Position numbers and translations under genes: made by a program
Notes under the pieces: generated by a model
What the model saw: only the letters and a program-made list of their open reading frames with translations
The model's database searches: none
What the model was told of the DNA's origin: nothing
In this document: positions 9,846-21,400 of the stretch, piece after piece
How the letters are laid out: each line of letters starts with the position of its first letter
How positions within the stretch are numbered: the stretch's first letter is position 1
NCBI GenBank assembly: GCA_024277175.1
Contig: JAJRVT010000427.1
Location: forward strand, 1-33,861
Reading direction: 5' to 3'
DNA: 33,861 nt
Origin: Chloroflexota bacterium
GTDB taxonomy: Bacteria; Chloroflexota; Anaerolineae; Caldilineales; Caldilineaceae

Positions 9846-9915
9846 TAACGTCCCCGGCACTGCCCGGATGCACTCCGGCAAACGACGAAATTTATAGGCA
9901 GTGCCGGGGACGTTA
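9846..9915. repeat. perfect 19-base inverted repeat between regulator and propeller genes
   Basis: The arm TAACGTCCCCGGCACTGCC at 9846-9864 is exactly complemented at 9897-9915. The loop contains a small second hairpin (CCGGA..TCCGG near 9864-9878). The stop codon of the regulator gene (9913-9915) is the outermost triplet of the right arm. The message of the regulator would end in this stem. The GTGCCGGGGAC core resembles REP-like palindromes mobilised by RAYT transposases in other bacteria, but no such transposase is in the window. Confidence 0.85.
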
Positions 9916-12624
9916 ATCAGCTACTTCCTCCCAGGCCTCTATGATCTGGCGGTGGACCGGGATCTGGGTCAGGAAGCGGCGGTGGCTGGCCGCGTCGGTG
10001 ATGCGCGCGGCCTTGGCCATCAGTTTTTCGTAGGCGCGTTCCAGGAGCGACCGGGCCCGGGGATCGCCGGTCGCGTCGAACGCCCGGTAACAGGTGAACG
10101 CGATCTGCATGGGTTCGTCTACGCCATGGATCCCCTCCCGTTCGCTCCATTCGACAACCTTCGTCGCCCACTGCAAGGCCTCGTCCAGATCACCTGTGGC
10201 CAGGGCCACCGCGGCCAGCCCCGCCTCGGCTTCCATGGCCATCGGATCCCGATCCATGGCTCGCCAGCCGTCCCTGGACTTCCGGAAAGCATTGGCGGCC
10301 AGGGAGTGTACGCCCTGCTCCAGCCAGACGTAGCCCAGATGGAGCCAGGCGTAACTTTCGGGATCGGCCGTCCCATACTCCTGGGCCAGTGCTAACGCCC
10401 GGCGCCCACAGGCTTCGGCCTTTTCCAGACGTCCTAACTTGCGATTCACCGTACACAGGTTGTGATAGGCGTGGCTTTCCTGGTAAGGATCCTGGAGTTC
10501 ATGGCTGAGATCCCGGGAGCGTTCATGATAGCCGAGTGCGCCCTTCAGATCGCCCAACGCGCCGTGGACGAAACCCATGGCGTTAATGACGCGCGCCTCC
10601 AGGGGGCGGTTGCCCATGGCTTCGATCAGATGCAGGGCTTGGGCCAGATAGCGTTCGCCTGCCGAATAGTCGCCATGGGTGATCTTGATGACGCCCAGAT
10701 AGAGAAGCGCAGCCTGCTCTTCGCTGCGATTGCCCAGCGCTTGCTGGATCGCCAGGGCCTCGCGCAATGCGGCCTCGCCCGCCTCATGTTCGCCGACGTG
10801 CATCAAGGCCCCGCCCAGGTAGCGGAACGCCAAGCCTGCCATGTCCAGATGTCCACTCCTCTGGCCCATGTCCGCCGCGCGCCGTAACGGATCTAGGGCC
10901 TGGGGCGCCTCTCCGTATTGGATCAGGGTGCGTCCCATCAGCAGAAGCCCCCACGCCTCCATCCGCTCGTCACCCAGGGCGCGGGCCAGGGTCACCACTT
11001 CCTCCGCCCCTTGGAACGCCTTATCGAAACGGGCGAGGCGGATGCGGGCGTGGGTCAGTTCAGCCAGCAGATGGAGGCGAAAGCGCGTCAAAGCGTCCTG
11101 ATCCAGGTCCCACTTTTTGTTCGACGCCATGACCTCCACCGCGCGCAGCGTCTCGGCAAAGACCGCTCCGGCTTCGGTGAACGCGCCGTTCAACCTGTAA
11201 TAGCCGGCCAGGGCGGGCAGGCTGGCGTCCAGGTCCGCCAGCTTACCATGGGCCACGGCGACGCGCCACGCCTCCCGGATGTTGTCCACGTCCTGGTGGA
11301 GCGCTTCGTCTGTCCAGACTCCGTCATATTCGCTCAACCAGCCCAGAAAGTAATGGCTGTGGCGCAGGGAGATGGCGTCGGCCTCCCCACTTTTGCCCAG
11401 TTTGACGGCGGCGAACTGGGCCAGCAACGGGTGCATGTCATAGCGGCCCGGCCCGGCGCTTCGCAGCAGCGATTTGTAACGCAACTGGGTGAGGATGAGA
11501 AACGAGGCCCCGGCCACCTGCTGCGCGGCCCGACTGCTGACGCCCCCCCGGAAGACCGACAACCGCCCCAGCGCGCGCTGCTCGCCCGGGGTGAGCAGAC
11601 GCCATGACGAGGCGAAGATGGCCTTCATGCTGCGGTGCTGGGAGGGCGTATCCCGGTCCTGGGTGGTCAGCAGACTCAGGTCCTGCTCCAGCGCCGCGGC
11701 CACGCCTTCGGGCCCCAGGTCCTGGAGCCAGGTGGTGGCCAGCTCGATGCCCAGGGGCATCCCCTCCGTCAGTTCACAGATGCGCACCACGCTGGCCACG
11801 TTGTCCGGCGTCAATTTGAAATGTTTGCTCCGCCGGTAGGCTCGTTCACAGAAGAGGCGGACGGCCGGATATTGACCGGCGCGATCCAGTTGATCGGGCA
11901 GCGGCGCAGGCAGCCCCCGCAGGCGGAAGAGATCCTCCCCCTGCACGTTCAACTGCTCCCGGCTGGTGACCAGGAGCGTCACACCCGGCGCGCGGTGAAG
12001 AATGGCGAGAATCAGATCGATGACCGCGTCTCCCCCCGCCGCGTCCGGCTCCGGGGACGTGAGGAGGTGCTCCAGGTTGTCCAGGATCAGGAGCATGCGG
12101 CGGTTCCGCAACGTCCTCAGCAGCAGATCGCGGGGGGCGACATCGCCTTCGGCGAAGGTGAGCCCGATGGCTTCGACCAGGGCCGCCGGCAACTCTTGGG
12201 GAAGCTTATGTCCGGCCAGGGCCACGAAATAGGCGCCATGGTCGAAGAGATGACGGTTCTGGCGCGCCGTCTCCACCGCCAGGCGGGTCTTGCCGATGCC
12301 GCCCGGCCCCGTCAGGGTAATCAGGCGAGCGTCGCCCGCTTCCAGCCGTTGCCGGAGTTGGGCCAGCTCTGCTTCGCGTCCGAAGAAAGGGGTCAGGCTT
12401 TCGGGCAGGTTGTGCTGGCGAGCGGCGTCCATGCCCGGCGCTGGTTGGCGCGGATCGTCGGACGGGTGCGGGGGCGCATCCAACTTCCCGGCGCGGATCT
12501 GCTCGTGGAGCATGACCGTGTCCGGCTCCGGCTCCACGCCCAACTCCTCCGTCAACACCGTGGCGCAGGATTGGTAGACGGCCAACGCGGCCGTACGGCG
12601 TCCCTGATAACAGAGTAGGCGCAT
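9913..12624 (-). pseudogene. C-terminal ATPase/TPR part of the split SARP/BTAD regulator
   Basis: Reading frame continuous with the N-terminal part at 12643-13263 but separated from it by a single TAA. It begins with the last helices of the BTAD domain (MRLLCYQGRRTAAL, ELGVEPEPDT). An NB-ARC/AAA-type ATPase follows, with a P-loop LTGPGGIGKTRLA (about 12285-12320) and a Walker B MLLILDNLEHLL. About ten TPR-like repeats (for example GNRSEEQAALLYLGVIK) run to the C-terminus. This architecture matches large SARP/LuxR-like signal-integrating activators. The ATG at 12624 has no ribosome binding site, so independent translation is doubtful. If the TAA is genuine and not read through, this half is probably a broken gene part, although its frame is otherwise fully intact. 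Confidence 0.75.
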
Positions 12625-12642
12625 CAATTGACGGTAGGCGTC

Positions 12643-13263
12643 TTAGTGGAAAGCGTCGAGTTCGATCTGGCGTCGGGCGTAGCCAGCGGCGATGCTGTAC
12701 TCCCCCATCCGCTCGAAGGTCCGGATCAGACGGTCGAACAACTCCATGGCCTGAATGCGCAGCCGCTCCCGCTGCACCGCCATCCACTCATCGAACACCA
12801 GACAGTCGGCCAGGTGGAACCCGGCCAGAAAGTCGCCCTGGTACAGGTCTGCGGCCCGGGCCATGCGTTGGCGGCAGTCGGGGCACGCATTCAGGTCGCC
12901 GTGATCATGGGCGGCGCAGGCGTCAAGCAACGTCTGAAATTCGGCCACATCCAGCCACAGCCCATTGTCCGGATCGATCCACACCTCGTGGCGGTCGCTC
13001 AGGAGGGGAGAGGGCGCACCGTCGTCGCGCGCCAACTGTTTTCGCAGGCGGTTCAGGGTGACGCGTAGGTTGTTGCGCGCGTTGGACAGGGGCAACTCCG
13101 GCCAGAGCAGGCCCAGCAGGCTGTCCCGGCTGTGGGGCCGATGCTTCTCCACGGCCAGGTAGGCCAGAAGGGCGCGCGCCTTGAGCCCGCGCAGGGTTAG
13201 GGGCTCGTCACCGGCGGTTACGGCGCGCCATCCGCCAAGCAGAAAGAGTTTTGGCTGCGTCAT
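12643..13263 (-). CDS. N-terminal DNA-binding and BTAD part of a SARP-type activator, cut by in-frame TAA
   Basis: A 206-residue product. Residues 1-95 form an OmpR/SARP-type winged helix (LTLRGLKARALLAYLAVEKH, then LWPELPLSNARNNLRVTLNRLRKQL). Residues about 105-206 are the start of the BTAD domain (DLYQGDFLAGFHLADCLVFDEW). The last residues RRQIELDAFH run straight into a TAA where relatives have a Glu codon, followed in the same frame by DAYRQLMRLLCYQG. The start at 13263 has GGGAG about ten bases upstream and a strong promoter 50 bases upstream. The intact protein would be about 1116 residues. By itself this half has the DNA-binding and part of the BTAD domain, like a short SARP missing its final helices. 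It may control the divergent operon beginning at 13408. Confidence 0.8.
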   Translation of the reverse strand: MTQPKLFLLGGWRAVTAGDEPLTLRGLKARALLAYLAVEKHRPHSRDSLLGLLWPELPLSNARNNLRVTLNRLRKQLARDDGAPSPLLSDRHEVWIDPDNGLWLDVAEFQTLLDACAAHDHGDLNACPDCRQRMARAADLYQGDFLAGFHLADCLVFDEWMAVQRERLRIQAMELFDRLIRTFERMGEYSIAAGYARRQIELDAFH

Positions 13264-13342: not shown

Positions 13343-13407
13343 TGCGTGCAAACCCGGTCCGGCGGATGGTTGCTGAGATCGCACAGCCCCAGGGCGGGAG
13401 CGAAACC

Positions 13408-13626
13408 ATGATCGACCCCAAAGACGGGGCGTCACCCTATCGATCGTTCGTGCTGCGCCTGTGGCCAGCGAGCCGTAGCGGCCAGGCCTGGCGGATCACC
13501 CTCCAGGAAATTGGACGGGAGGAGCCGCGCCATCACTTCCCTGATCTGGATGCGCTCTTCAGTCACCTGATCGCCCTCACTCAAGTGGGCGGATCGTCTG
13601 CCGAAGGCGGATCCGATCAGGCGTGA
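13408..13626 (+). CDS. small conserved-looking protein of unknown function next to the SARP gene
   Basis: A 72-residue protein. The central part reads SFVLRLWPASRSGQAWRI and then HHFPDLDALFSHL. I recall short proteins with this RLW...WR..L...FxxLxxLF pattern encoded near BTAD-type regulators in Chloroflexota and Actinomycetota, but no function is known to me. There is no signal peptide and no cysteine. I chose the ATG at 13408 because GGGAG lies seven bases upstream and because the longer in-frame start at 13342 overlaps the divergent promoter. The gene is 52 bases upstream of the large BNR lipoprotein and probably shares its transcript. It is divergent from the regulator, which suggests it may be a target or accessory of it. 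Confidence 0.6.
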   Translation: MIDPKDGASPYRSFVLRLWPASRSGQAWRITLQEIGREEPRHHFPDLDALFSHLIALTQVGGSSAEGGSDQA

Positions 13627-13678
13627 ATTGAGCACGATGTCCTGTCCTGAACAACCTATCGACAACAAGGAGAATGGC

Positions 13679-16600
13679 ATGAAAGGGTTCAAGCATCCTA
13701 GACGATTTGGATTGATCTTGCTGTTATTGACGCTTGTGCTGGCGGCCTGTAGCGCGAGCCAGTCAGAAGCGCCCGCCCAGGTGGGAGACCAGGCGCTACA
13801 GGCGGTGGCGATCCTGCGTACGAACGGCGGGGAGGCGTCTTCAGCCGCGGCTGAGGACGCAGACGATTCGGAAGAGGCCGACGGCGGCATGAGCAAGAAG
13901 GAGGCGCGCTTCGACTGGTTCTGGCGTCAGCGAGCCTATCCCCTGACGACAGTCCCGTTTATGGCCAGCAACCGGGCCCTGGAGCAGACGATGCGCATGC
14001 GCGCCGCCGCCCAGAACGCGCCCTGGCAGAGCCTCGGCCCGGCCCCGCTGCTGGAGGAGTACCAGAACGACGATCCCCAGACCGGGGATGAAGTGCGCAC
14101 CACGGCCAGCGGGCGCGTGACCAGCGTCGCCTTCGATCCGAGCACCCCCAACACCCTCTATGTGGCGACCGCCGGCGGCGGCGTCTGGAAGAGCGTGGAC
14201 AAGGGCGCGAATTTCACATCGATCACATCGAGCCGGCCGGAGTTCGCCTACGCATCCGTGACCGTGGACCCCAACAATTCGAACGTCATCTACGCAGGGA
14301 CGGGCGACCTGACCGGCTATTATGGCAACGGCGTGCTCAAATCCAGCGACGGCGGGGCTACCTGGACGCTCTACGGGGCGAACGAGTTTGGCGCCAACGC
14401 GGTCATGCAGGTGATCGTCGATCCCACCAACAGCAACCGGCTCTACGCGGCAACCGCCTGGGCGTCCCAAACTCCATCCAGGGAGGCTCCGCCCAACAAG
14501 GGCGTCTTCCGCTCGAATGACGGCGGCGTCACCTGGCAGCGGGTGCTGGAGTGCAATCCGTGCAACACGGGCTTCACCGATCTGCTCATAGATCCCGGCA
14601 ACCCCCAAACCCTCTACGCGGGCAACGCCGGCGTGGGCGTCTTCAAGAGCGTCAACGGCGGCGACTCCTGGGCCCCGCTCCCTGACTTCAGCGCCAAAGT
14701 GGGACGTCAGAATTATTCGCGCCTGGAGATGGCCATCGGCGCCGGCGCGGGGTCGAGCACGCTCTACGCCGGCATCGACGGCAACCGCAATGTGAACGGC
14801 AACCTCGTCCCCTGGGGCTTCGTCTACCGGAGCGTCGATGGCGGTCAGACCTGGCAGATGCTGGACCCGAACAGCACGCCCAACTACTGCGACACTCAGT
14901 GCTGGTACAACAATGTCATCGCCATCAACCCCGCCAATCCGAATGAGGTATTCCTGGGCGGGGTGGACATTTTCCGCACCACCAACGGCGGCCAAAACTG
15001 GACGAACATCCGCCAGGGCGTGCATGTGGATCAGCACGCCGCGGCCTTCGATCCGACGGACGCCGGCGCGGTCTGGGTGGGCAATGACGGCGGTCTCTTC
15101 CGCTTCAAGGACGGCCAGTGGCAGGCGTTCAACACCGGGATCACTTCGCTTCAGTTCACCGGTCTGGGCGTCCATCCCACCAACCCCAATCTGGCCGTGG
15201 GCGGCATGCAGGATAACTCCCACGCCATCTTCGACGGGACTGACTGGAAGGGGTTCTCGCTCGCCGATGGCAACAAGGCCGAGTTCGATCCCTTTGATCC
15301 CAGCATCATCTACCACGGCGATCAGCAGATTTCCTTCAGCGCCAACCAGGGGAGCACAGTCGAGGAGATGCGCCAGAACGCCCAGGAGCGGCTGAACGGG
15401 GTCGATTTCAACGACAACTCCCAATTCTACATTCCCTTCGAGGTCGACCCCAACAGCGAGGGCGCGCTCTATCTGGGCACGGACAAGATCTATCGCACGG
15501 CGAATCGGGGCGTACAGTGGACCGCCATCAGCCAGGTGCTGGAGGATCAAAGCAGTGTGCAGTCCATCGGCGTTTCATCCAGCGACGCCAACACGATCTA
15601 CGCCGGCACGACCGGCGGGCTGATCTTCAAAGGAAGTCGAGACCCCAACGGCCAGTGGACCTGGGCCAATCTGATCAACGCCCCCTTGCCCAACCGCTTC
15701 CTGTCCGACATCGCCGTTCATCCCACCAACGCCAACATCGTCTATCTGGCCTACAACGGCTTCAGCGCCAACACACCGGCCCGGCCCGGGCACGTCTTCA
15801 AGAGCGAGAATGGCGGCGTAACCTGGACCCGTGTCGACGGTGCGGGCGCGAGCGCGTTCCCGGACGTCCCCGCGCTGACCATTCTCATGGATCCTGATAA
15901 TCCCGCCAACCTCTACGTGGGCACGGACATCGGCGTCTTCCGCTCCACCGACGGCGGCGCGTCCTGGGCTCCGTACAGCGAGGGTCTGCCGCCCGTGCCG
16001 GTGACGGACCTGCAATACACGCAGAGCAACAAGCTCCTGTGGGCAGCCACCTATGGGCGCAGCATCTATCGCACCTCGCTCGCGGCAGGACCTCCCCCGC
16101 CTACGCCCACGGACGGACCCACGCCCACGCCAACCATGACGCCTCCGAACACGCCCACGCCAACTATGACGCCCACCGCACCGTCCGCCGGCGTCAGGCC
16201 GGGCGGGTGGGTGGGTGACGTCGTGGGCTTCCAGGTGGCCAGCAACCAGATGCAACTCTTCAACTTCCGCGTCGAAATCGACTTCGGGAACTGCACCCAA
16301 CCCGTGCAGTTCAACGGCCCGGTCACCATCGACGGCGGCGGGAACTTCTCCTTCACCGTCGACGATCGCAACAGTAGTTGGCGCGCGACCGGACAGCTCG
16401 GCAACCAGAGCGCCAGCGGCTCGGCCACCTTCAACAACGTGGCGCCCGGCACTTCCATGTGCGGCGCTCCCTTCACGGAAACCATGGAGTGGACCGCGAA
16501 TTGGTCCGCGTCCGCGCCGGACCCGACGCCTACGCCCATTCCGCCCGCACCCACGGCCACGCCCATGCCGGTGAGCGCAGATGGCATCAACGGGCAGGTG

Positions 16601-17263
16601 CGCTTCAACGGCCAGGGGCTGCCGGGCGTCGAGCTGGGCCTCTTCATCTGCCCGACGGATGACAACGCCCCCTGCAACCCGGAGGAGGACGCGCCCTTCG
16701 ACGCCACGATGACCGACGCCGGCGGCTTCTACGACTTCACGGACGAACCTGCGCTGGGGGCGGATGAGGAGTATTTCGTCTTCTACCTGAACGATGAAAG
16801 CGGCGGCAACCCGGCCAACGACATCTATCTCTATCGCTGGTTCGGCGAGTCGATCCCCGGCTATGCCGGCGGCAGCCGCAGCGGCGGCGACTTCGAGATC
16901 GGCGAGGTGCGCCTGCTTGCGCCGAGCGATAACGTCACAGCCGCCCTGCCCCTCACCTTCGAGTGGACGCCGCGGCCGGCCGCGCCCGGCGAACGCTACG
17001 CCTGGCAGTTGTTGGACCTGAACACGGGCGCAAACGTCTGCGAGAGCGCGCCGGCGACCACGACCAGTTTCATCCTGGATCAGGCGTTCTTCGACGCCAA
17101 CTGTGGGGACGTCACAAACGGAACCGAATACGGCTGGCTCGTCTGGGCCATCGACGGCGCGGACTTCGACACAGCCCGCGGCTTCGGAGACTCCTACTAC
17201 GTGGGCATGCTGACCTTCGGGGACGGCCAGGTGCGGGTCTTCATGCCGGTTGTGCGTCGATAG
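13679..17263 (+). CDS. large secreted BNR/sortilin-like lipoprotein
   Basis: A 1194-residue exported lipoprotein. Residues 1-24 are a signal peptide with lipobox LAAC (Cys24). From about residue 110 to 800 there are many BNR/VPS10-like propeller repeats with Asp-box-type motifs (GGGVWKSVDKGANF, SSDGGATW, RSVDGGQTW, RTTNGGQNW, RSTDGGASW). A Pro/Thr linker (about 806-838) follows, then a beta-sandwich domain, a second Pro/Thr linker (about 948-966), a CnaB/SdrB-like domain (GINGQVRFNGQGLPGVELGLF), an Ig-like domain and the terminal VRVFMPVVRR. Such propellers bind carbohydrates or proteins; some are glycosidases (xyloglucanase-like), but I see no convincing catalytic pair. The start at 13679 is set by AAGGAG six bases upstream; an in-frame ATG at 13628 lacks one and precedes a poor signal peptide. 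It is downstream of the small gene and followed by a palindrome. Confidence 0.88.
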   Translation: MKGFKHPRRFGLILLLLTLVLAACSASQSEAPAQVGDQALQAVAILRTNGGEASSAAAEDADDSEEADGGMSKKEARFDWFWRQRAYPLTTVPFMASNRALEQTMRMRAAAQNAPWQSLGPAPLLEEYQNDDPQTGDEVRTTASGRVTSVAFDPSTPNTLYVATAGGGVWKSVDKGANFTSITSSRPEFAYASVTVDPNNSNVIYAGTGDLTGYYGNGVLKSSDGGATWTLYGANEFGANAVMQVIVDPTNSNRLYAATAWASQTPSREAPPNKGVFRSNDGGVTWQRVLECNPCNTGFTDLLIDPGNPQTLYAGNAGVGVFKSVNGGDSWAPLPDFSAKVGRQNYSRLEMAIGAGAGSSTLYAGIDGNRNVNGNLVPWGFVYRSVDGGQTWQMLDPNSTPNYCDTQCWYNNVIAINPANPNEVFLGGVDIFRTTNGGQNWTNIRQGVHVDQHAAAFDPTDAGAVWVGNDGGLFRFKDGQWQAFNTGITSLQFTGLGVHPTNPNLAVGGMQDNSHAIFDGTDWKGFSLADGNKAEFDPFDPSIIYHGDQQISFSANQGSTVEEMRQNAQERLNGVDFNDNSQFYIPFEVDPNSEGALYLGTDKIYRTANRGVQWTAISQVLEDQSSVQSIGVSSSDANTIYAGTTGGLIFKGSRDPNGQWTWANLINAPLPNRFLSDIAVHPTNANIVYLAYNGFSANTPARPGHVFKSENGGVTWTRVDGAGASAFPDVPALTILMDPDNPANLYVGTDIGVFRSTDGGASWAPYSEGLPPVPVTDLQYTQSNKLLWAATYGRSIYRTSLAAGPPPPTPTDGPTPTPTMTPPNTPTPTMTPTAPSAGVRPGGWVGDVVGFQVASNQMQLFNFRVEIDFGNCTQPVQFNGPVTIDGGGNFSFTVDDRNSSWRATGQLGNQSASGSATFNNVAPGTSMCGAPFTETMEWTANWSASAPDPTPTPIPPAPTATPMPVSADGINGQVRFNGQGLPGVELGLFICPTDDNAPCNPEEDAPFDATMTDAGGFYDFTDEPALGADEEYFVFYLNDESGGNPANDIYLYRWFGESIPGYAGGSRSGGDFEIGEVRLLAPSDNVTAALPLTFEWTPRPAAPGERYAWQLLDLNTGANVCESAPATTTSFILDQAFFDANCGDVTNGTEYGWLVWAIDGADFDTARGFGDSYYVGMLTFGDGQVRVFMPVVRR
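16121..16173 (+). repeat. 30-base period direct repeat encoding the Pro-Thr linker
   Basis: The 23 bases at 16121-16143 recur at 16151-16173 with one mismatch, encoding two copies of TPTPTMTP in the linker of the BNR lipoprotein. This is a within-gene duplication typical of low-complexity linkers. Confidence 0.6.
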
Positions 17264-17291
17264 GATAGAACGCAGACCAGGCAGGCTCCGT

Positions 17292-17412
17292 TGGAACGCG
17301 GATTGACGCTGTTCACGAAGTGGGCGCAAAGCGCCATTCAAACGAATTTTCACGGATTTTTTCTGAAAAAATCCGTGAAAATTCGGCTTCATCCGATAAA
17401 ATCCGCGTTCCA
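17292..17412. repeat. dispersed palindromic element, copy C
   Basis: A 121-base element between two large secreted-protein genes. The outer arms are TGGAACGCGGATT at 17292-17304 and its exact complement at 17400-17412, identical to copy B. The inner palindrome has perfect 21-base arms at 17343-17363 and 17365-17385 around a single base, with the centre GGATTTTTTC..GAAAAAATCC. A 5-base hairpin (GGCGC AAA GCGCC) lies in the left half. A half-element start, GATAGAACGCAGA, directly follows the stop codon of the upstream gene at 17264. Confidence 0.85.
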
Positions 17413-17455
17413 TCGGCGCTCGCTGAATAGATACGTCTTGAGAAAGGACAACGAT

Positions 17456-20400
17456 ATGTACAGTCACAGTCATGCTACACGTCACGCCAAAGCTGGACAC
17501 AGTTCGCATTCCAGAATGAGGATAGGGGTGTGGAGATCACTACTCTCTCTATTCTTTGTTCTCACATTGTTCTTGCCAGCCTCGATGCCCGCGCTGGCCG
17601 AGTTGGCGGGCGGCGACGCTCTTCAGCAGAGCAGCGAATCGGGTTTGACCCTTGATCTGGATTCCCTGGAATTCGTTGCGTTTGATGACACGCCGCCCGA
17701 TCCTCAAGCCTTCACACTTAGCAGCAGCGATGAGTCGACTATCGACTGGGAGGCGTCTGTTTTCACCGATGATGGCGAAGGGTGGCTGACGCTCAGTGCT
17801 GAATCGGGTCAGGTCTCTGATACGCCGGTTATAGTTGATGTAGGCGTGGACCCCACCGGATTAGTCGAGGGTCTCTACTTTGCCAGCATCTATGTTGAGG
17901 ATGTCAATGCATTGTTCGAATTGGAAATCTCTGTCGTCCTGGAAATTGGCAATATGGACGAGCCGATTCTGACCGTCGATCCCTATCGCTTGACCTTTCA
18001 GGTTGCCGAGGGCGGCGCCAATCCGGCCGGGCAGAGCTTCATGGTGAGCAATGAGGGTTCGGTCGCGTTTGACTACACCGTAATCCCGCTGGACGATTGG
18101 GTCCAGGTCGATTCGGAATCTGGTAGCGCCACCCAAGACGCACCAGGCACGGTCAACGTAACCGTCGATGCCAGCGGGTTCACCAGCGGTGTTTACTCGA
18201 CCGAAATCGACATTGTTGATACTGAAACGTACTACTATGAAACGATCCTGATTGACCTGATTGTCACCGGAGACGCCGCGCTGCAGGCTTCGCCCGCGTC
18301 AATGAATTTTACGGTCGTCGAGGGCCAGAACTCAAGCGAAACCCAGACTTTGACCGTCACCAATGGCGGCGCGGGTGATCTTGAGTGGTATGCCTACAAT
18401 GATCAGGCCTGGCTTGTGCTCGAGTATAGCGAGGATGACGACAGTCAGTTGACGGTCGGACTCTTCAGCGAATGGCTGGATGCCGGCGTCTACACGGACA
18501 CTATCTACTTTGAAAGCAACGGTGGCTTTAAGGAGATCCCGGTGACGCTCTCGGTCCAGAGTGCGGCTCAAGCCAATATGACGCAGCCGGCGCCCAACCT
18601 GGCAATTACCGATTTTCGCATCGAACCGGCCAACCCGACGGCCGGCGCGCCGGCTGTATTTGTCGCCACGATTACCAACAACGGGGCCATCGCGACCACG
18701 AATGCGGGATTCTATGTTGACCTCTTTTTCAATCCTAGCCAGCAGCCCCGGGGAGGCGTCGATTGGTATGCGATTGACAGCTCGCTGAATCCAAAACAGG
18801 GCATCGAGTGGGGCGTCTTTACCGGCTCGTTGGCGCCAGGGCAGTCCATAACTATGCGCTCAGATGGGGCTAATGGCGCGTTGGCGCCGGATGATCAATA
18901 CACCAATTACGATGGAAATTTCCCCGCCAACGTGACTGATGTTGTACTCTACGTGGATAGCTGGGAGCAGAACGGTTCTCCGAACGGCGCTCTGCTGGAG
19001 AGCAATGAGGCCGATAATCTGGCCAAGATCACCATCAATGGCGGCGCGCCGCCGGCCCCGCCAACCGGAAACTTGGAGATCTTTGGACTTGAGGTGACGC
19101 AAGCCATTCAGGACCTAAAGAACAGCGTGCCGCTGGTCAGCAACAAGCAGACCTACGTGCGCGCCCATGTGCGCAGCCTGGGGACGGCCATCCCCGGTGT
19201 GCAGGCGCGCTTGATTGGCACGCGTAACGGGCAAGCGTTGCCCGGCTCGCCATTGACGCCCGTCAATGATCCGTTGGCCATTACCGTGCTGCCCACCCCC
19301 AACCGGGCCGTCAAGAACGAGTCGTTCCTCTTCAAACTGCCCGCAACGTGGATCGGCGACGGCAACCTTACGTTGGAATTTCAAGGATCCAACCAGCAGT
19401 TCCAATGCGCCGAGCTTGGCGAAGACGCGGCAGCTCGGGACTGTAAGGTGACGGTCACGTTCGAAAGCGTGCCCAATATCCCGCTTCGCTACTATGACAT
19501 TCAGTGGACCGATGCGCAGGGAACGCATTCACTGACGCAGGGGGTTCAGGATCGCAACACGCGCGCGCTGATGGCCCAGTTCCCGGTGTCCGGTATCAAT
19601 TTCCAGCCCACACAACCGCTGCGCGTCACCGGTAATCCGACCTCTGCCGGCGGGACATCCACCTTCTTGGAGCGTGTGCTGGATCAGATCAATGTGCTGC
19701 ATCGGCAGGACCCGTCCTATGTTTACTACTATGGACTTGCTGCCGACACGGCTGGCAACGGTTGGGGCTATACGCCCCGTGACACCGATTATGGATTCTT
19801 TACTGGAGACGGTAGTGCTGAATTCCCGGGCATTACCGTGCATGAGTTGGCGCACATGCATGGACGCCAACATACGAATTGCTCAGGTGCGGAAGCAGCG
19901 CCGGATGGGAATTATCCTCACCCTGGCGGGCGCATCAGCACCCAAACTGAGACGCTGAACCCGGACACCTTTTTCGGTTTCAACATCTATACGCAGCAAA
20001 TCTACCCACCCACCGTTGGTGACGTGTTGAGCTATTGTCCGCAGACATGGGTGTCGGGTTATAACTACAAACTGATTCTGGACGCGATCAAGCGCCGGCA
20101 GAAGGCTTGGGATGACAGGCAGAACAATCCGCTCTTCCAAGCCGCCGCGCTGGATGAACCCCAAGATGTGCTGATTGTCCATGGCGCTGTCGGTGATGAC
20201 GACAACGTGACGATTGGCGGCGTTGTCTCGACAGAGGCCCCGGCAACGCTGGGTCTGCCAGAACCAGGCGATTACGTCCTGCAAGTACAGGACGCTGTTG
20301 GCGCAGCGATCGCGAGTTATCCCTTCGCAACGGGCCGGGCCATGAATCAGAATGAGGTGTTCAACGTGGCCGTCCCGCGTACAGACAATATCCGGCGCGT

Positions 20401-21400
20401 CGTGGTGCTAAAGGATGGCGTTGTACTGGACCAGGTGGCGGCGTCGGCCAATGCGCCTGAGATCACGCTCAACAGCCCCAATGGTGGTGAAACCTTTGGA
20501 CGCACATCGATCCAGGTCGATTGGACGGCCAGCGACGCCGACGGGGATGACCTGACCGTCAATATCGAGTATAGCACCGACGACGGCGCGACCTGGTCAG
20601 TCATCAGTACGGACCTCACCGGCAATAGCGCTGAACTGGATCTGAGCAAAGTTGCCGGGTCGGACCAAGCCCGTCTGCGGGTGCGGGCCTCGGATGGGTT
20701 CAATGGCGCAACGGATCAAAGCGATGGGTCATTTAGCGTACCCAACGCCGCGCCCGATGCCACCATCGCAACCGCGAGCGGACAGCGTTTCGTCCGCAAT
20801 CAGGCGATCGTCCTGGATGGCAGCGGCGTCGACCTGGAAGATGGAGCGATAACTGGCTCCGGCCTGACCTGGCGGTCGACGCGTAATGGTCAACTGGGCA
20901 ATGGAGAGCGCCTCGAACTCGACGCCTTCATGCTCAAAGAAGGCAAGCACACCATCACGCTTTCGGCCCGCGATAGCGCCGGCGCCACCGCTGTGGCCAG
21001 CATCAATCTGATCGTCACGCGCAACCCGGTGGTGATTCCCGCCGTTCTCAACCTGTATCCAGCCGAGGTGGGGGCGGTCGTGGAGTTCGACGCCACGAAT
21101 AAGACCGTTACTGAGAACGTGCGCGTAGCCAATGATGGTGACAGCAATCTGCAGTGGACCGCCGTCGCGCAGGACGATTGGGTGAAGATCGATAAGTCGA
21201 ACGGCGCCGCGCCTGAGGATGTCAAGGTGACCGTCGATGCCACAGGCTTTGAGCCGGGCTACTACGCCAGTGCAGTGGTGTTCAAGAATAGTCGTACGGA
21301 TGAGGAGACGACGCTGACGGTGAAGTTGTTGGTGAATAAAGCGGCCAGCGATCCCGGCGGCCACGGTACAACCATCTTCCTGCCATTGATCACCCGGTAG
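17456..21400 (+). CDS. large secreted multidomain zinc metalloprotease (HExxHxxGxxH)
   Basis: A 1314-residue protein. A signal peptide covers about residues 21-49 (RSLLSLFFVLTLFLPASMPALA), after a short basic lead. Three BACON-like beta-sandwich repeats follow (about 55-370), then a CARDB-like domain (PNLAITDFRIEPANPTAGAP). The protease domain carries HELAHMHGRQH at residues 796-806, the metzincin-type zinc site with Glu797 as the catalytic base. Downstream come an Ig/PKD-like region (SPNGGETF, then DGATWSVIS), a fourth BACON-like repeat near 1190-1280, and the terminal TTIFLPLITR. The Met-turn position reads DVLSYC, with Leu858 where relatives I know have Met. The start at 17456 follows GAAAGGA; an earlier in-frame ATG at 17291 lies inside palindrome C and is rejected. 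Base composition is visibly less GC-rich than in the BNR gene. It is probably an extracellular protease with adhesive domains. Confidence 0.85.
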   Translation: MYSHSHATRHAKAGHSSHSRMRIGVWRSLLSLFFVLTLFLPASMPALAELAGGDALQQSSESGLTLDLDSLEFVAFDDTPPDPQAFTLSSSDESTIDWEASVFTDDGEGWLTLSAESGQVSDTPVIVDVGVDPTGLVEGLYFASIYVEDVNALFELEISVVLEIGNMDEPILTVDPYRLTFQVAEGGANPAGQSFMVSNEGSVAFDYTVIPLDDWVQVDSESGSATQDAPGTVNVTVDASGFTSGVYSTEIDIVDTETYYYETILIDLIVTGDAALQASPASMNFTVVEGQNSSETQTLTVTNGGAGDLEWYAYNDQAWLVLEYSEDDDSQLTVGLFSEWLDAGVYTDTIYFESNGGFKEIPVTLSVQSAAQANMTQPAPNLAITDFRIEPANPTAGAPAVFVATITNNGAIATTNAGFYVDLFFNPSQQPRGGVDWYAIDSSLNPKQGIEWGVFTGSLAPGQSITMRSDGANGALAPDDQYTNYDGNFPANVTDVVLYVDSWEQNGSPNGALLESNEADNLAKITINGGAPPAPPTGNLEIFGLEVTQAIQDLKNSVPLVSNKQTYVRAHVRSLGTAIPGVQARLIGTRNGQALPGSPLTPVNDPLAITVLPTPNRAVKNESFLFKLPATWIGDGNLTLEFQGSNQQFQCAELGEDAAARDCKVTVTFESVPNIPLRYYDIQWTDAQGTHSLTQGVQDRNTRALMAQFPVSGINFQPTQPLRVTGNPTSAGGTSTFLERVLDQINVLHRQDPSYVYYYGLAADTAGNGWGYTPRDTDYGFFTGDGSAEFPGITVHELAHMHGRQHTNCSGAEAAPDGNYPHPGGRISTQTETLNPDTFFGFNIYTQQIYPPTVGDVLSYCPQTWVSGYNYKLILDAIKRRQKAWDDRQNNPLFQAAALDEPQDVLIVHGAVGDDDNVTIGGVVSTEAPATLGLPEPGDYVLQVQDAVGAAIASYPFATGRAMNQNEVFNVAVPRTDNIRRVVVLKDGVVLDQVAASANAPEITLNSPNGGETFGRTSIQVDWTASDADGDDLTVNIEYSTDDGATWSVISTDLTGNSAELDLSKVAGSDQARLRVRASDGFNGATDQSDGSFSVPNAAPDATIATASGQRFVRNQAIVLDGSGVDLEDGAITGSGLTWRSTRNGQLGNGERLELDAFMLKEGKHTITLSARDSAGATAVASINLIVTRNPVVIPAVLNLYPAEVGAVVEFDATNKTVTENVRVANDGDSNLQWTAVAQDDWVKIDKSNGAAPEDVKVTVDATGFEPGYYASAVVFKNSRTDEETTLTVKLLVNKAASDPGGHGTTIFLPLITR

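Follow-up and report, generated by a model that had tools for sequence, protein, structure and literature searches.

A lone TAA codon interrupts a large regulator gene on the minus strand of the Caldilineaceae contig studied here (33,861 nucleotides, analysed at full length and called the window below), and it is very probably an ordinary nonsense codon, whether a real recent allele or an artefact of the consensus, these two being counted jointly. Of the pair, the most likely is a real nonsense allele of recent origin in the lineage or strain that dominates the assembly, while a consensus artefact is the less likely. Readings in which the stop serves a function, or is read as sense, fare much worse against the evidence presented below.

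A lone stop codon in a large regulator gene

The minus-strand frame from 13263 to 9913 comprises 1,117 codons, of which codon 207 is the TAA at 12645-12643; the sole other stop is the terminal TAA at 9915-9913. This bears out the preliminary description, which had placed the stop at exactly this position and had called the rest of the frame continuous, and its account of the domains and of the text flanking the stop holds as well. Pfam recovers the winged helix, BTAD, ATPase and TPR matches (Table 1). Third-position G+C is 83% upstream of the stop and 80% downstream. When the stop is read as X, the BTAD domain is a single unbroken match over residues 104-257 (83.7 bits, cut-off 22.1), and scanning each side alone returns partial matches of 23.3 and 39 bits. 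Because this match runs unbroken across the stop, the observation does not come from two unrelated frames lying side by side by chance, and the regulator frame with its lone internal TAA is a real feature of the consensus sequence.

Table 1. Positions, in the window, of features of the interrupted gene, and loci of the neighbouring small-ORF family.
Feature	Position	Strand	Basis
Lone in-frame TAA, codon 207	12643..12645	-	sequence and translation
Open frame of 206 aa ahead of the stop, beginning with ATG; DNA-binding winged helix and about two thirds of BTAD	12643..13263	-	
Frame continuing past the stop: BTAD end, AAA/NB-ARC-type ATPase, TPR region, terminal TAA 9915-9913	9913..12642	-	
Trans_reg_C (winged helix) match, residues 28-84	13012..13182	-	Pfam
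BTAD domain, broken by the stop	12493..12954	-	Pfam
AAA_16 match (STAND-type ATPase)	12058..12390	-	Pfam
TPR_MalT match within the TPR region	10027..10584	-	Pfam
TTG-ATG, nearest possible restart codons; best 4/6 and 2/6 to AGGAGG, both at spacing 11	12622..12627	-	
GGAGGAG-TTGGGC-GTG, of all starts scored the one most like a restart site; 5/6 to AGGAGG, spacing 8	12535..12550	-	
Small-ORF family loci	13366-13626 (+); L004, L010, L011, L012, L013, L016, L018, L020, L022, L024		

The N-terminal Trans_reg_C match scores 29.5 bits (cut-off 26.2), and the part downstream of the stop carries AAA_16 (35 bits, cut-off 32.6), TPR_12 (77.1, cut-off 30.1) and TPR_MalT (47.8, cut-off 45), with NB-ARC at 23.2 bits slightly below its cut-off of 23.5. 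The order expected of a large, AfsR-like SARP is thus present, namely an N-terminal winged helix of the OmpR/PhoB type, then BTAD, then a STAND/AAA ATPase and TPR body; the single unbroken reading frame that should hold all these domains is absent, with TAA at codon 207. On these predicted domains the interrupted gene is to be classed with the large AfsR-like activator genes of SARP/BTAD-STAND-TPR type.

Conservation of the interrupted residue and consequences of truncation

In a MAFFT alignment the interrupted column is Glu at all 28 distinct places compared (seven paralogues from the same genome and 21 places in other genomes), these being the best-scoring places with sequence at hand and hence a subset of all relatives, after the removal of six duplicate loci; an earlier count had been made on 34 loci including duplicates (L013/L087, L015/L088, L017/L089, L019/L090, L020/L091, L023/L092 and L002/L005). 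The preliminary description had expected Glu encoded by GAA in relatives, and the residue is as it said, the codon only in part: GAG occurs at 18 of these places and GAA at 10, and the closest relative found has GAG. The same column corresponds to E213 of AfsR and to Glu 205 in the 2fez chain of EmbR, again by MAFFT; a HMMER alignment to AfsR was gapped at the stop, and we preferred the MAFFT alignment with relatives, which placed the stop ungapped on E213.

The stop itself is confined to this gene in every comparison made. A search of 46 genomes of the order, with no congener among them, returned 63 matches at E <= 1e-60 from 20 genomes, and none of the 62 matches other than the target carries the stop; this is the comparison with close relatives that had been proposed as a check. 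The 61-genome and 16-genome searches agree, no other relative among the matches listed having the stop, and within the genome itself the codon-207 regulator is alone among 18 BTAD places. Three distant Nocardiopsis loci returned by the genome-contig search for relatives, in which 26 to 102 of the 904 query residues matched, were left out.

The closest relative among the matches listed is a likely orthologue in the same family (G009:C24:647-3154), which is 53-56% identical and likewise has the divergent small ORF, and which is open at the stop site and as far as its contig reaches, the contig ending before the gene does. Identity to this relative is 53.2% on the N side of the stop and 53.6% on the C side, and first, second and third codon positions differ at 32, 31 and 48% of sites upstream and at 32, 29 and 53% downstream. 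Given such similar values on either side, both parts have been equally constrained during most of the period that separates the gene from this relative.

The nonsense TAA most likely arose recently, in the lineage or in the dominant strain of the assembly. As for a possible pseudogene, which would be expected to lose its function and to gather lesions, the frame has one nonsense codon and zero other internal stops over 3.3 kb, and so gives no sign of decay beyond that codon, a point against the nonsense reading. How much time this allows can be bounded: of the 10,035 single-base changes possible across the remaining codons, 311 make a stop, so that about 104 x d extra stops are expected under neutral change at divergence d. 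With zero extra stops observed, the 95% upper limit on the neutral divergence accumulated after the stop arose is about 2.9%, assuming uniform substitution and ignoring indels. The bound is a weak one, and it fits a recent event.

From the observed stop and frame, translation is predicted to end after 206 residues, giving a product that would consist of the winged helix and the beginning of BTAD and would lack the BTAD end, the ATPase and the TPRs. The published AfsR transcription complex gives some measure of that loss. According to excerpts of PMC10936776, E213 is among six residues enclosing His499 of sigma region 4, a contact carried by helices 3 to 7 of the BTA domain, and R240, L243, D245, E246, L247, V249, D250 and R252 make contacts with sigma or the alpha-CTD. 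In our own alignment these last eight all fall downstream of the stop, with V172, E176 and L211 upstream and L263 outside the aligned segment; compared with AfsR, the truncated product would therefore lose much of its surface for contact with sigma region 4 and the alpha-CTD. The same excerpts describe E176, L211 and L243 mutants as insoluble and the alanine changes E246A, L247A and V249A as having no obvious effect (PMC10936776), so by analogy the loss of any single contact may be tolerated; the truncated product would lack the entire segment. They also report that the SARP domain alone (Met1-Ala270) activates in vitro, the NOD being required in vivo (PMC10936776), and a product ending at the equivalent of E213 is therefore shorter than the active domain described there. 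By analogy with AfsR, we infer that the 206-residue product is inactive as an activator, and it may be unfolded or act as a weak DNA-binding competitor.

Reading of TAA in the genome

That the frame stays open downstream of the stop would also be expected if TAA at codon 207 were read through, suppressed or reassigned, and recoding of a stop does seem to occur in this genome, though the stop concerned is TGA, with a tRNA-Sec and a likely UxxC selenoprotein (L073:15623). Among 33 tRNA places found (32 with anticodons assigned by ARAGORN and the tRNA-Sec with anticodon tca) we detected no UUA anticodon able to read UAA, in a draft that is 89.49% complete and whose tRNA set is accordingly incomplete. 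TAA ends 53 of the 208 long frames in a 420,480-base sample of the genome, and the 30 codons that follow 52 terminal TAAs score as non-coding (mean -0.165), as do those past TAG (-0.178) and TGA (-0.253), against +0.121 for the 30 codons before stops. TAA terminates normally in this sample, and it is also the terminator of the regulator gene itself. Programmed readthrough would be expected to yield a full-length product and to leave the stop and its context conserved in relatives; none of the other 62 matches of the order, from a set of genomes without a congener, shares the stop. The recoding observed in this genome looks like a matter of TGA and not of TAA, and sense reading of codon 207, unsupported by tRNAs, by the non-coding stretches past terminal TAAs or by the gene's own ending, is the least probable of the explanations considered.

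Possible division into two proteins

The stop could instead mark a functional split, in which the DNA-binding part of 206 aa and an ATPase-TPR part produced by re-initiation would both be made, working as two proteins or in opposition. Both sides of the stop are conserved, and candidate starts exist at TTG 12627, ATG 12624 and GTG 12537, the last with GGAGGAG 6 nt upstream. Against this, the stop interrupts BTAD itself and replaces an invariant Glu, and the TTG and ATG that are the first restart codons, 15-18 nt past the stop, have poor matches to a ribosome-binding site. The restart-like sites also have a plainer origin: of 30 aligned sequences, 27 have Met at codon 214, and the bases of the GGAGGAG-GTG site encode a conserved EELGV stretch, in which codons 240 to 243 specify Glu in 28, Leu in 28, Gly in 26 and Val in 24 of the 30. 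Since relatives conserve both the Met and the ELGV stretch, the sites follow from the protein and call for no special explanation, and none of the other 62 matches of the order has a split of this kind. We regard such a split as very unlikely, and its stricter form, in which the stop is fixed and functional and yields a short DNA-binding protein along with a separate ATPase-TPR sensor started at GGAGGAG-GTG or at a nearer restart, as exceedingly so. If it were true that the stop is fixed and both parts are made, a one-piece activator would have become a two-piece or self-competing switch, and the case would illustrate the way in which an activator of the STAND type, made in one piece, comes to be divided into parts.

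Lone stop codons elsewhere in the draft

To return to an ordinary nonsense codon, its weight depends on how often such codons occur in this genome. Our scan covered the 420,480 bases mentioned above, made up of 20 stretches of the same genome and the window, a non-random sample of contigs already encountered. A first pass with 100-codon flanks gave 13 candidates and missed the codon-207 target, which shows that such scans miss cases; a looser pass with 60-codon flanks gave 109, many of them probably shadow frames. A filter that required each flank to score >= 0.1 and to be the best of the six frames left 15 candidates, the target included: 11 gene junctions judged by eye, the target, the likely Sec codon at L073:15623, a nonsense codon at L078:9077 and an uncertain case at L080:3540. 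Ten of the junctions have an ATG or GTG within 9 codons, and the start in L083 is 26 codons off. Pfam supports the L083 junction, where an OmdA domain ends ahead of the stop, and that of an AAA/DUF58 pair in the window; the other nine were judged from the peptides alone, and the target too has an ATG 7 codons on, so that distance by itself does not discriminate.

The second lone in-frame TAA, at L078:9077-9075 (-), lies in a gene for a DUF2142/PMT-like membrane protein (both Pfam matches below cut-off), which is open in all other relatives among the matches listed in a 41-genome search; its stop column is variable in nine aligned relatives. A lone in-frame TAG at L080:3540-3538 (-) separates two coding-like stretches without a Pfam match and may be either a nonsense codon or a junction.

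One to two lone nonsense codons per 386,619 bases outside the window would correspond to some 13 to 27 in the 5.2 Mb draft, an extrapolation from a non-random sample. None of the 127 ABC_tran matches in the genome contains a stop, from which lone stops are rare in the draft. The lone nonsense codon is thus a small background class in this draft.

These observations also bear on the possibility that the TAA is a consensus or assembly artefact, or an allele of a minor strain, in a population that mostly has the sense codon. The assembly is a draft of 440 contigs, 3.76% contaminated, and presumably a metagenome bin; a further gene of the sample also carries a lone TAA, and the regulator gene has no other stop. 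The stop-free ABC_tran matches speak for point errors being infrequent, and we consider this possibility, which overlaps with the joint reading given at the outset, plausible only to a limited degree, somewhat less than an even chance. Among the four readings offered by the preliminary description, a fresh nonsense mutation and a sequencing or assembly error both fit, while stop readthrough and a natural split are disfavoured. As it stands, the interrupted gene is of limited importance, for lone nonsense codons in genes of draft genomes are to be expected, and this one affects one of 18 BTAD places. More useful are two by-products, an uncharacterised small ORF that lies divergently beside many such regulators, and a likely UxxC selenoprotein accompanied by a tRNA-Sec.

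Neighbouring features and by-products

The small ORF at 13366-13626 (+) encodes 86 aa, is divergent from the regulator, and belongs to a family whose member in the window has no Pfam match above cut-off. Aligned rows of this family are 57-86 aa long with the consensus YxSYLLRLWx..WRASLEx..FAxLxxLF. A search of 16 genomes with an 11-row alignment found 89 places, eight of them with a stop inside the match. Among the best 60 of the 89, at least 43 lie divergently no more than 1.2 kb from a listed BTAD gene, a lower bound given that only part of the 283 BTAD matches in the 16 genomes was compared; 4 lie within 3 kb of a BTAD gene but farther off or non-divergent, and 13 have no listed BTAD gene nearby. 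The rows of the alignment were chosen beside BTAD regulators, which biases the top places towards adjacency. The small ORF could be a partner or modulator of SARP-STAND regulators.

The selenoprotein candidate, L073:15830-15129 (-), has an in-frame TGA at 15623-15621 and is related to redoxins and deiodinases, with a U-P-Y-C motif. It matches Redoxin at 27.8 bits (cut-off 26.6) and NF038285 at 53 bits, below the cut-off of 250, and a tRNA-Sec with anticodon tca is found at G000:C204 (67.5 bits, gathering score 47). UxxC selenoproteins of the deiodinase-like and redoxin kinds are listed in PMC13188914. From its sequence the L073 product is likely a UxxC selenoprotein.

At the other end of the regulator gene lies a palindromic repeat (9846-9915) with perfect 19-base arms at 9846-9864 and 9897-9915, the outer TAA of which doubles as the terminal stop of the regulator. 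The genome has 25 places with the core pattern of this repeat and none with the reversed control, marking it as a dispersed repeat. Two further large ORFs lie beside the regulator at 13628-21400 (+), one of 1,211 aa that matches Sortilin-Vps10/BNR and one of 1,369 aa that matches BACON and TPPII Ig-like.

Comparison with known regulators

EmbR of Mycobacterium tuberculosis (2fez, 2ff4) shares with the regulator described here the winged helix and BTAD, and it has Glu at the interrupted column. It carries an FHA domain and is not known to have the ATPase-TPR body. Also comparable is AfsR of Streptomyces coelicolor, a large SARP (8k60, 8jke, 8hvr) with the same order of winged helix, BTAD, nucleotide-binding domain and TPRs. 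Similarity of the regulator to AfsR is weak (43.3 bits to 8k60 over query residues 9-256), and the regulator here falls far under the NCBIfam AfsR cut-off, its downstream and upstream parts, scanned apart, scoring 120.9 and 26.6 bits against the AfsR equivalog NF053617, with a cut-off of 1430. Of the two, it is the regulator from this genome, and not AfsR, whose frame is interrupted.
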